The position numbers and the translations under genes are program-made. The notes below the pieces were generated by a model that did no database searches, was not told where the DNA came from, and saw only the letters and a list, made by a program, of their open reading frames with translations. DNA of 60,454 nucleotides from Candidatus Peribacteria bacterium (GTDB lineage: Bacteria; Patescibacteriota; Gracilibacteria; UBA1369; LOWO2-01-FULL-3): positions 1 through 60,454 of the forward strand of contig CALREX010000006.1 in the NCBI GenBank assembly GCA_943356465.1. The letters are read 5' to 3'. This document shows, piece after piece, positions 12,730 through 16,021 of this stretch (its first letter is position 1; every line of letters begins with the position of its first letter).

Positions 12730-12818
12730 AAGGTTTTAGTTAGGTAACAAATTTAACTCTACATCTAACAAAAAAAGTGTCAAAAAAAACAATTTCTCAT
12801 ATTTGTCTTTTGTGTTGA

Positions 12819-12867
12819 ATGTCTGCCTTTGGCAGAACTGTTTTATTCTGGTGGGCCAGCCGGGATT
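12819..12867. repeat. Displaced copy of tRNA-Lys 3' end and downstream hairpin
   Basis: These 49 bp are identical to 12918-12966, which holds the last 19 nt of tRNA-Lys with CCA plus 30 nt downstream, including the hairpin CTGCC-TTT-GGCAG. The copies are 99 bp apart in the same orientation. After the identity ends, this copy runs into unrelated sequence (CCCCTCCGGGG...). The pattern fits either a tandem duplication or an attachment-site scar. Confidence 0.85.
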
Positions 12868-12947
12868 TACCCCTCCGGGGCATAAACTTCTCATCCCTCT
12901 TGGCAAAAGAATAAACCATGTCTGCCTTTGGCAGAACTGTTTTATTC

Positions 12948-13023
12948 TGGTGGGCCAGCCGGGATTCGAACCCGGGACCAATTGCTTAAGAGGCAACTGC
13001 TCTACCAGCTGAGCTACTGACCC
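12948..13023 (-). tRNA. tRNA-Lys (CUU)
   Basis: This 76-nt tRNA has acceptor GGGTCAG paired with CTGGCCC (one U-G), anticodon stem GTTGC/GCAAT with loop CTCTTAA (anticodon CTT), T-loop GTTCGAATC and encoded CCA. A minus-strand promoter (TTGATA, 17 bp, TAACTT) lies about 40 nt upstream. The 3' part is duplicated at 12819-12867. Confidence 0.96.
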
Positions 13024-14296: not shown

Positions 14297-14325
14297 TTGA
14301 CGGTGAGCGTACGCTCACCTATCAT
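14297..14325 (+). promoter_or_regulatory. radA promoter with an 18-bp palindromic operator
   Basis: -35 TTGACG (14297-14302), a 17-bp spacer and -10 TATCAT (14320-14325). The perfect palindrome GGTGAGCGTACGCTCACC (14302-14319) fills the spacer exactly. Its centre, GAGC-GTAC-GCTC, resembles the GAAC-N4-GTTC layout of Gram-positive LexA boxes, which is notable before a DNA-repair gene. The regulator is not in the window. Confidence 0.7.
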
Positions 14326-14373
14326 ATGGCAAAGAAAATGAAGTCCTAAAAATAGATTTTTTCTATACCACCT

Positions 14374-15714
14374 ATGAAATTAAAAACTGTTTATATTTGC
14401 TCAAATTGCAGCCATGAAAGCCAAAAATGGATCGGCAAATGTCCAAACTGTGAAGCTTGGAATAGTTTCATGGAAGACGTGATAAATGTAGGAAAACCTC
14501 TAAAACAAGGAATTTCTTCAACACCAAGATCTCTAAAAATCGAAGCACTATCCCCTGCCTCACTCACTACAAATAAAACATCAATCTCAAGATTTCTTAC
14601 TGGAATAGAAGAATTTGACCGCGTAATAGGCGGCGGGATTGTTGCAGGAAGTTTGATTTTGCTCAGCGGTGAGCCTGGAATCGGAAAATCAACACTAACT
14701 CTTCAAATCGCAAATAATATTTCAAAAATTAAAAAAGTTTTACTGATCTCAGGAGAAGAATCTGTGGATCAAATAGCTGAACGAGCACAAAGACTAAATC
14801 TAAATGAAGAAAATCTCACAGCAGTAAACGAATACAATCTCGAAACAATGCTGGAAACAATCCGCAAAGAAAAACCGGATTTTGTAATAATAGATTCTAT
14901 CCAGGTAATTTCCAGCATCGATATTCCTGGCTCAGCAGGATCAATAACTCAAGTACGTTATTGCACAGAACGTATCATGGAAATAGCAAAAACTTCAGGC
15001 ATTGCAGTTATGCTTATAGGACATGTGACAAAAGACGGAAATCTCGCAGGCCCAAGAGTTTTGGAACATCTGGTCGACACAGTAATGCAAATCGAAGGAG
15101 ATAGATTTCAGCAATTTAGAATGTTACGCGCTTCAAAAAACAGATTCGGTTCATGCAATGAAGTCGGGATTTTCGAAATGACAGAAAGAGGCATGACGCA
15201 GGTAAAAAATCCATCCGAACAATTTCTTGAAGGCAGAAAAAAAGACGCGATCGGAAGCATAATAACAGTAGCCATGGAAGGAACAAGACCATTCTTAGTT
15301 GAAGTGCAAGCCCTTGCCTCAACCAGTCCATTCGGATATCCAAAACGCACAGCGAACGGTTTCGACTTAAACCGCCTACAAATCCTCATAGCCGTTTTGG
15401 AAAAACACGCAAAAATAAACCTACAAACTCAAGACGTATTTATAAATATAGTTGGAGGAATCCGCTTAAATGAACCAGCCGCAGATCTAGCCGTCCTCAT
15501 GGCAATAGTATCATCACACACACAAAAACATATATCGGACAACACAATAATTTACGGAGAAGTCGGACTTTCCGGAGAACTTCGCAAAGTCAGCCATGCC
15601 GAAAAAAGAGCTAAAGAAGGCGAAAAACTAGGATTCACAAACCAAATCACTCCAAACAAATACAAAGAGATAACAGAAATCATCAAAAACCTATCGACTC
15701 ATCAGGAGAAATAA
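14374..15714 (+). CDS. radA: DNA repair protein RadA (Sms)
   Basis: This 446-aa protein is a RecA-like ATPase that promotes branch migration during recombinational repair. It has an N-terminal zinc finger (C-x2-C at 10-13, C-x2-C near 24-27), Walker A GEPGIGKST (about 98-106), the RadA signature KNRFGSCNEVG (about 254-264) and a C-terminal Lon-protease-like domain (about 290-445). All family parts are intact and the length is normal. It is transcribed from a promoter with a palindromic operator. Its 3' end overlaps the convergent gene at 15683-16021 by 32 bp. Confidence 0.95.
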   Translation: MKLKTVYICSNCSHESQKWIGKCPNCEAWNSFMEDVINVGKPLKQGISSTPRSLKIEALSPASLTTNKTSISRFLTGIEEFDRVIGGGIVAGSLILLSGEPGIGKSTLTLQIANNISKIKKVLLISGEESVDQIAERAQRLNLNEENLTAVNEYNLETMLETIRKEKPDFVIIDSIQVISSIDIPGSAGSITQVRYCTERIMEIAKTSGIAVMLIGHVTKDGNLAGPRVLEHLVDTVMQIEGDRFQQFRMLRASKNRFGSCNEVGIFEMTERGMTQVKNPSEQFLEGRKKDAIGSIITVAMEGTRPFLVEVQALASTSPFGYPKRTANGFDLNRLQILIAVLEKHAKINLQTQDVFINIVGGIRLNEPAADLAVLMAIVSSHTQKHISDNTIIYGEVGLSGELRKVSHAEKRAKEGEKLGFTNQITPNKYKEITEIIKNLSTHQEK

Positions 15715-16021
15715 CAGAAGCTACCAAAATTTTCCTGCCTAAGTCATCCACACCCTTAATATCAATTTTTAAAGATATCCCATTATCAAACCTATACTCA
15801 TTGTACAACTCATCATCCGCCAGTCCCCTCATAACATAAAATCTATCAATCGAACTAAGTCCCATATACCCTGGAATATTTGATGCAAGTTCAATTCTTC
15901 CATTTGCCAAAACATCAGTTATAAGAAAAGACGGATAAGCATTTAGGTAAACATAAGTTCCAATATCTTTGGACGAAAATTCAAAAACTTCCCTGCTATT
16001 ATCAACATTATCCATTCCCAT
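15683..16021 (-). CDS. Hypothetical protein, 112 aa
   Basis: I do not recognise this 112-aa acidic protein. It looks beta-rich (several alternating hydrophobic strands) and has no signal peptide. It is supported by a good promoter (16055-16082), although its last codons overlap the end of radA on the other strand. There is an ATTAATTA stretch just before the ATG, as in other lone hypothetical genes here. Confidence 0.6.
   Translation of the reverse strand: MGMDNVDNSREVFEFSSKDIGTYVYLNAYPSFLITDVLANGRIELASNIPGYMGLSSIDRFYVMRGLADDELYNEYRFDNGISLKIDIKGVDDLGRKILVASVISPDESIGF

Follow-up and report, generated by a model that had tools for sequence, protein, structure and literature searches.

The window analyzed here is the whole 60,454-nucleotide stretch of DNA. 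Within it, radA starts with an ATG at position 14374, downstream of a promoter of the form TTGACG-17-TATCAT (14297 to 14325 in the sequence of the window) whose spacer is filled by GGTGAGCGTACGCTCACC. The radA product scored 544.5 bits with the NCBIfam profile TIGR00416 (RadA/Sms), for which the cut-off is 403.05. Because the next downstream ORF, at 15683 to 16021, lies on the other strand, radA looks monocistronic. The full promoter stretch, with its 17-bp spacer, reads 14297 TTGACGGTGAGCGTACGCTCACCTATCAT 14325, and the features of the locus are as follows.

14297..14302, + strand: −35 hexamer TTGACG of the radA promoter, from the sequence; its last base is common to the operator
14302..14319, no strand assigned: predicted LexA operator (SOS box) GGTGAG-CGTACG-CTCACC, a perfect 18-bp palindrome, from sequence, recurrence, and conservation
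14320..14325, + strand: −10 hexamer TATCAT of the radA promoter, from the sequence
14374..15714, + strand: radA (sms), encoding the DNA repair protein RadA (446 aa), the presumed controlled gene, from the ORF and TIGR00416

The earlier note had placed the palindrome exactly between the two promoter boxes. The palindrome is real and the spacer is indeed 17 bp long, but the first G of the palindrome is also the last base of TTGACG, giving a 1-base overlap with the −35 element. The predicted operator overlaps the promoter elements, as a LexA (SOS) operator should. Reading of the sequence also revealed a seven-codon ATG...TAA frame directly behind the −10 box of radA, at 14326 to 14349. The palindrome lies 72 bp before radA in this genome, compared with 46 bp in the three relatives of the same genus.

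A palindromic spacer might arise in a promoter by chance alone. When the window was simulated with a first-order Markov model, 0.39 perfect 18-bp palindromes were expected per window, so that the palindrome is not significant by itself and its significance rests on recurrence. The real window contains exactly one perfect palindrome, and 18-bp palindromes with at least 12 G+C appeared in none of 100 Markov simulations.

We therefore turn to recurrence, for which the whole genome (1,083,998 bases in 7 contigs) was searched with the reversed pattern as a control. When up to 3 mismatches were allowed, the palindrome was found at three sites in the whole genome and the reversed control at none. These three strong sites lie before radA, before recA (C4:29911), and before a BRO-N gene (C2:23639). 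With a looser pattern, GGTGAGNNTANNCTCACC, two further sites in tandem appeared directly upstream of lexA, at C4:91998 and C4:92021. The fused promoter-operator, TTGACNGTGAG-N6-CTCACNTA, referred to below as the cassette, had exactly four matches in the whole genome.

C2:23634: cassette before the BRO-N gene (PF02498)
C4:29909: cassette before recA (TIGR02012)
C4:92019: cassette before lexA (LexA profile matches)
C6:14297: cassette before radA (TIGR00416)

The earlier note had proposed a search for the motif before genes such as recA and lexA; elsewhere in the genome it does occur before both of these, and also before a DinD-type gene. At 3 mismatches, the looser pattern showed no excess in this genome (13 sites versus 17 for the control), so we credit the strong sites alone and make no claim for the weaker ones. 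Weak sites with 2 or 3 mismatches (C2:13673, C7:38928, C2:83235, C4:108122, and others) were rejected as chance matches, the reversed control having yielded equally many. The gene at C2:23639 had BRO-N (PF02498) as its sole match; no NCBIfam profile matched it, that of DinD (NF008573) included, so we call it DinD-type rather than DinD. Related genes behind the cassette in two relatives, G001 and G024, scored 369.6 and 308 with NF008573 against a cut-off of 242, and these encode DinD proper.

A LexA homologue, the candidate repressor sought in the earlier note, was found in the genome, and its own gene lies behind the tandem boxes. Tandem boxes before lexA are a classical sign of autoregulation. 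The protein, a canonical LexA of 204 aa (C4:91374-91985), is the single Peptidase_S24 match in the whole genome. It matched PF01726 (N-terminal DNA-binding domain, 54.8 bits) and PF00717 (S24 peptidase, 91.0 bits), and it scored 166.1 bits with TIGR00498 against a cut-off of 110.95. Its VPAGGPV, GLSM, and TLKRL segments align with VAAGEPL, GMSM, and TVKRL of LexA chain 7b5g_A, for which the structure has been solved. Judged from these matches, the 204-aa protein is clearly predicted to have the LexA fold. We take the Ala-Gly of PAGGPV to be the cleavage site and the aligned Ser and Lys to be the catalytic dyad.

We then looked across a set of 60 genomes, consisting of relatives and the present genome, for conservation of the site. 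Fifty-eight of the 60 (own genome included) contain a LexA relative. Thirty lexA loci were fetched, 29 of them with upstream DNA. A box with at most 1 mismatch in its arms and TTGAC beside it preceded lexA in 28 of these 29 loci, a second, tandem box (up to 2 mismatches) was present in 26 of the 29, and the lexA gene of G014 was the one locus with no recognizable box. At recA, a box with at most 1 mismatch was present in 29 of 30 loci, and the reversed control, even with 2 mismatches allowed, was present in 0 of 30. The −35 sequence TTGAC adjoins the recA box in 22 of the 30 loci and, as read from the sequences, is separated from it by one extra base in 7 more.

The radA gene was found in 48 of the 60 genomes. 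Of 30 radA loci fetched, 22 belonged to the same family as the present genome and 21 of these had upstream DNA. The earlier note had made its reading depend on relatives keeping the palindrome before radA, and they do so in 18 of the 21 same-family loci (own included). The box was absent from the other three, in G029, G022, and G007, and from all 8 fetched loci of other families. One genome of another family, G035, which lay outside the 30 fetched loci, has by coordinates a 1-mismatch box 20 bp before radA. We conclude that LexA control of lexA and recA would span the order, with control of radA mainly a trait of this family. Chance as the origin of the palindromic spacer is refuted by this conservation, given that dozens of genomes carry the site before recA, lexA, and radA, against controls near zero, and we regard it as having essentially no likelihood.

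From the loci fetched by that stage (own genome included), we collected 176 distinct palindromes without requiring TTGAC. TTGAC (up to 1 mismatch) adjoined the palindrome in 115 of the 176, and in 109 of these 115 TANNNT lay directly behind the box. A logo of the 115 TTGAC-flanked sites showed a middle that was mostly T/C-G/A-T-A/G-T/C-A/G and a −10 element in which TA and the final T were nearly invariant; since the arms and TTGAC served as the criteria for gathering the sites, independent evidence comes solely from the middle and the −10 element. The core is GAGC-N4-GCTC at radA and GAG[T/C]-N4-[A/G]CTC in most of the 115 sites. The remaining 61 palindromes, which lack TTGAC, indicate that the box may have further uses.

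Clustering by product of the genes behind the 115 cassette sites gave recA or radA at 44 and lexA at 35, with BRO-N/DinD-type genes at 14 and 6; these counts depend on the loci fetched and are not frequencies. Rarer genes were RhuM (3 sites), a PIF1-like helicase (2), HNH-like genes (2), and an adenine methyltransferase (2). Single cases were a Y-family polymerase, Fic, KilA-N, DUF2130, a cytosine methylase, AntA, and an unknown. The Y-family gene, a translesion polymerase behind the cassette in one relative (L144), matched PF00817. In another relative, a box lies about 8 bp before a gene resembling that polymerase, outside the usual promoter spacer (L201; G022:C148, around 6279).

An inverted repeat that is perfect and GC rich could also fold in RNA, and T runs follow a few other copies of the palindrome in relatives, which raises the question of whether it is an RNA hairpin, a terminator, or a repeat element. 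At radA, however, the palindrome is followed by a −10 box rather than a T run and lies upstream of the expected transcription start, and a hairpin or terminator was rejected there on these grounds. When the flanking ORFs of the nonpromoter copies were inspected, no copy lay between converging genes and many lay between diverging genes, and terminators were accordingly rejected for these copies too. We consider an RNA-level or repeat-element explanation very improbable.

Across a sample of 379 genomes of the phylum, the cassette was present in 16, which are all 16 of the same order. It was absent from the 21 other genomes of the class (0 of 21) and from the 342 others (0 of 342), and the reversed control was found in 0 of the 379. 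For the palindrome alone we used the pattern GGTGAGNNTANNCTCACC with up to 1 mismatch, which occurred in 54 of the 60 relatives' genomes (own included), compared with 1 of 60 for the control.

The palindrome before radA is very probably a docking site for LexA, because the same site stands before lexA, recA, and another damage gene, both in this Peregrinibacteria (Patescibacteria) genome and in its uncultured relatives of that group. On this comparative evidence we read it, with high confidence, as the putative LexA operator of the radA promoter, through which radA would be repressed and then released upon damage. According to established LexA biology, a LexA dimer would bind GGTGAG-N6-CTCACC and occupy the whole gap between −35 and −10, and LexA lying on the spacer would exclude RNA polymerase from the radA promoter. 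Upon DNA damage, RecA filaments would form and LexA would cleave itself at the Ala-Gly of the PAGGPV hinge; with the repressor lost, transcription of radA would start along with that of recA, lexA, and the DinD-type gene. The proposal in the earlier note that a LexA-like or other dimeric repressor controls radA thus gains support from recurrence, the LexA gene, and conservation, with binding and induction inferred from established LexA biology. If this reading holds, radA would join the SOS core in Peregrinibacteria, and the regularity of the operator would let SOS genes be listed from sequence alone in these bacteria.

The layout resembles known LexA systems to differing degrees. In the E. 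coli recA promoter, the box likewise fills the gap between −35 and −10, as is seen in the stretch TTGATACTGTATGAGCATACAGTATAAT, with the LexA box lying between these elements. The E. coli box is TACTGTATGAGCATACAGTA, compared with GGTGAGN6CTCACC here, and its spacer is 16 bp rather than 17 bp. Unlike E. coli, the Peregrinibacteria order uses one layout at almost all of the lexA and recA promoters examined. The LexA box consensus of Firmicutes and Actinobacteria is GAAC-N4-GTTC, and the earlier note had likened the radA site to this Gram-positive box. The likeness holds for the register, as the four-base half-sites are equally far from the dyad in both, but not for the letters, which are GAGY-N4-RCTC here instead of GAAC-N4-GTTC: the half-site is GAGY with a conserved outer GGT, whereas that of Firmicutes and Actinobacteria is GAAC. 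The radA site was therefore rejected as a Firmicutes box proper, its core differing from GAAC-N4-GTTC.

A CACC-N6-GGTG dyad was common to 14 of the 20 regions examined upstream of lexA in other families of the class, and these 14 all came from the family f18. By eye, the f18 lexA promoters read TTGAC-NGTGNAC-N4-GTNCACC-TATNAT. A pattern derived from them was found in 17 of the 379 genomes, 13 of the 16 of f18 (L356 to L368) and 4 of the 5 of another family, f90 (L369 to L372), and the f90 sites are GTGAAC-N4-GTTCAC in the same −35/−10 spacer. lexA was the first ORF downstream in 12 of the 13 f18 loci; in L357, the first ORF was a different, short one, but the lexA match follows the site at 33 bp. 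Two of the 4 f90 loci were inspected, and in both the site is followed, some 240 to 290 bp downstream, by a LexA-like gene. Among 28 LexA sequences from the same order, the recognition region could be extracted from 20 and in these is SDNSILKHL or a slight variant of it, whereas that of f18 LexA is SKNAVAKVV-like. We read f18, f90, and this order as apparently sharing one promoter design in which the inner half-site has drifted. GAAC-N4-GTTC, GNAC-N4-GTNC, and GAGY-N4-RCTC, at the same promoter position, would then offer a natural series for joint change of LexA and its operator.

Some of the 61 palindromes without TTGAC are the second lexA boxes. Of the other non-TTGAC loci, 37 were inspected, and in 31 of them, as judged by reading N-terminal sequences, a gene belonging to a single protein family lay no more than about 240 bp away; here the palindrome often lies between diverging genes. 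We aligned 25 members (23 from palindrome loci plus similar ones), and they share invariant C, C, HH, C, H, and H residues of the HNH type. Examples in relatives are L188, L175, L184, L202, and L065, with the palindrome mostly outside a TTGAC promoter spacer. Pfam returned nothing convincing for the 10 members tested, nor did PADLOC for 6, and PHROGs assigned 5 of 6 members to HNH endonuclease families, at E-values ranging from weak to moderate. As far as our searches reached, this HNH-like family has no name. It is present in 46 of the 60 genomes at 1 to 35 copies each (E ≤ 1e−15), and several copies contain internal stops.

The family also allows a different reading of the box, namely, that another dimeric regulator, for example this multicopy HNH-like family, binds it and that LexA uses something else. 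Searching from the family side, we examined upstream stretches of 400 to 500 bp (a few were shorter, at contig ends). The 30 best-scoring copies each came from a different genome, and 24 of them had the palindrome (up to 1 mismatch) upstream; this set is biased, since palindrome-associated members had supplied the alignment. The palindrome also lay upstream of 9 of 40 lower-ranked copies chosen from the listing, and the reversed control was found upstream of 0 of the 70. However, the palindrome (up to 1 mismatch) is still present in 12 of the 14 genomes that lack the family (E ≤ 1e−15), so the HNH-like protein is not its main binder. The single HNH-like copy of the present genome (L285, G000:C4:57427-58413) has no box upstream, and the tandem boxes before lexA point instead to autoregulation by LexA. 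We regard binding by another regulator as very improbable and retain LexA as the predicted binder. The HNH-like genes may either be LexA controlled too or have borrowed or tracked the site for another reason. It is possible, although we hold it with slightly more doubt than confidence, that the Peregrinibacteria LexA also controls the multicopy family through the palindrome, here lying outside the usual promoter spacer, in which case many nucleases encoded in the genome would be set free upon DNA damage. The SOS response of a bacterium whose genome is very small would then have a selfish or defensive gene family under its command.

That LexA controls the SOS response is textbook knowledge; Peregrinibacteria have, to our knowledge, been encountered almost exclusively in metagenomes. 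A 2017 study by Sanchez-Osuna, Barbe, and Erill (doi 10.1111/1462-2920.13826) reportedly treats, by its title, the DNA damage-inducible (SOS) network of Patescibacteria. Going by that title, it concerns the same phylum and the same system; given this and the textbook status of SOS control, we claim no priority for the motif. A search on LexA in Peregrinibacteria found no papers, and a search on radA with the LexA/SOS regulon was likewise empty; for CPR groups, LexA was absent among the matches listed, and for LexA with HNH endonucleases, the visible portions of the matches listed contained no SOS-controlled HNH families. The 2017 study is cited in the available parts of PMC7739468 and PMC8565304. 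In the available text of the former (CGB), it is one of the references given for LexA motifs that are direct repeats, unlike the palindrome found here. Moxifloxacin induces radA in M. tuberculosis, according to the accessible section of PMC7911356, which in that section does not mention a LexA box at radA beside this induction.

Upstream of the radA promoter, a spurious ORF on the minus strand (12736 to 12996) runs over a tRNA-Lys gene (12948 to 13023), and the peptide PGWPTRIKQFCQRQT is repeated in its translation. The repeat suggests that the 3′ part of the tRNA-Lys gene and its flank have been duplicated, and this duplication is possibly an integration footprint.
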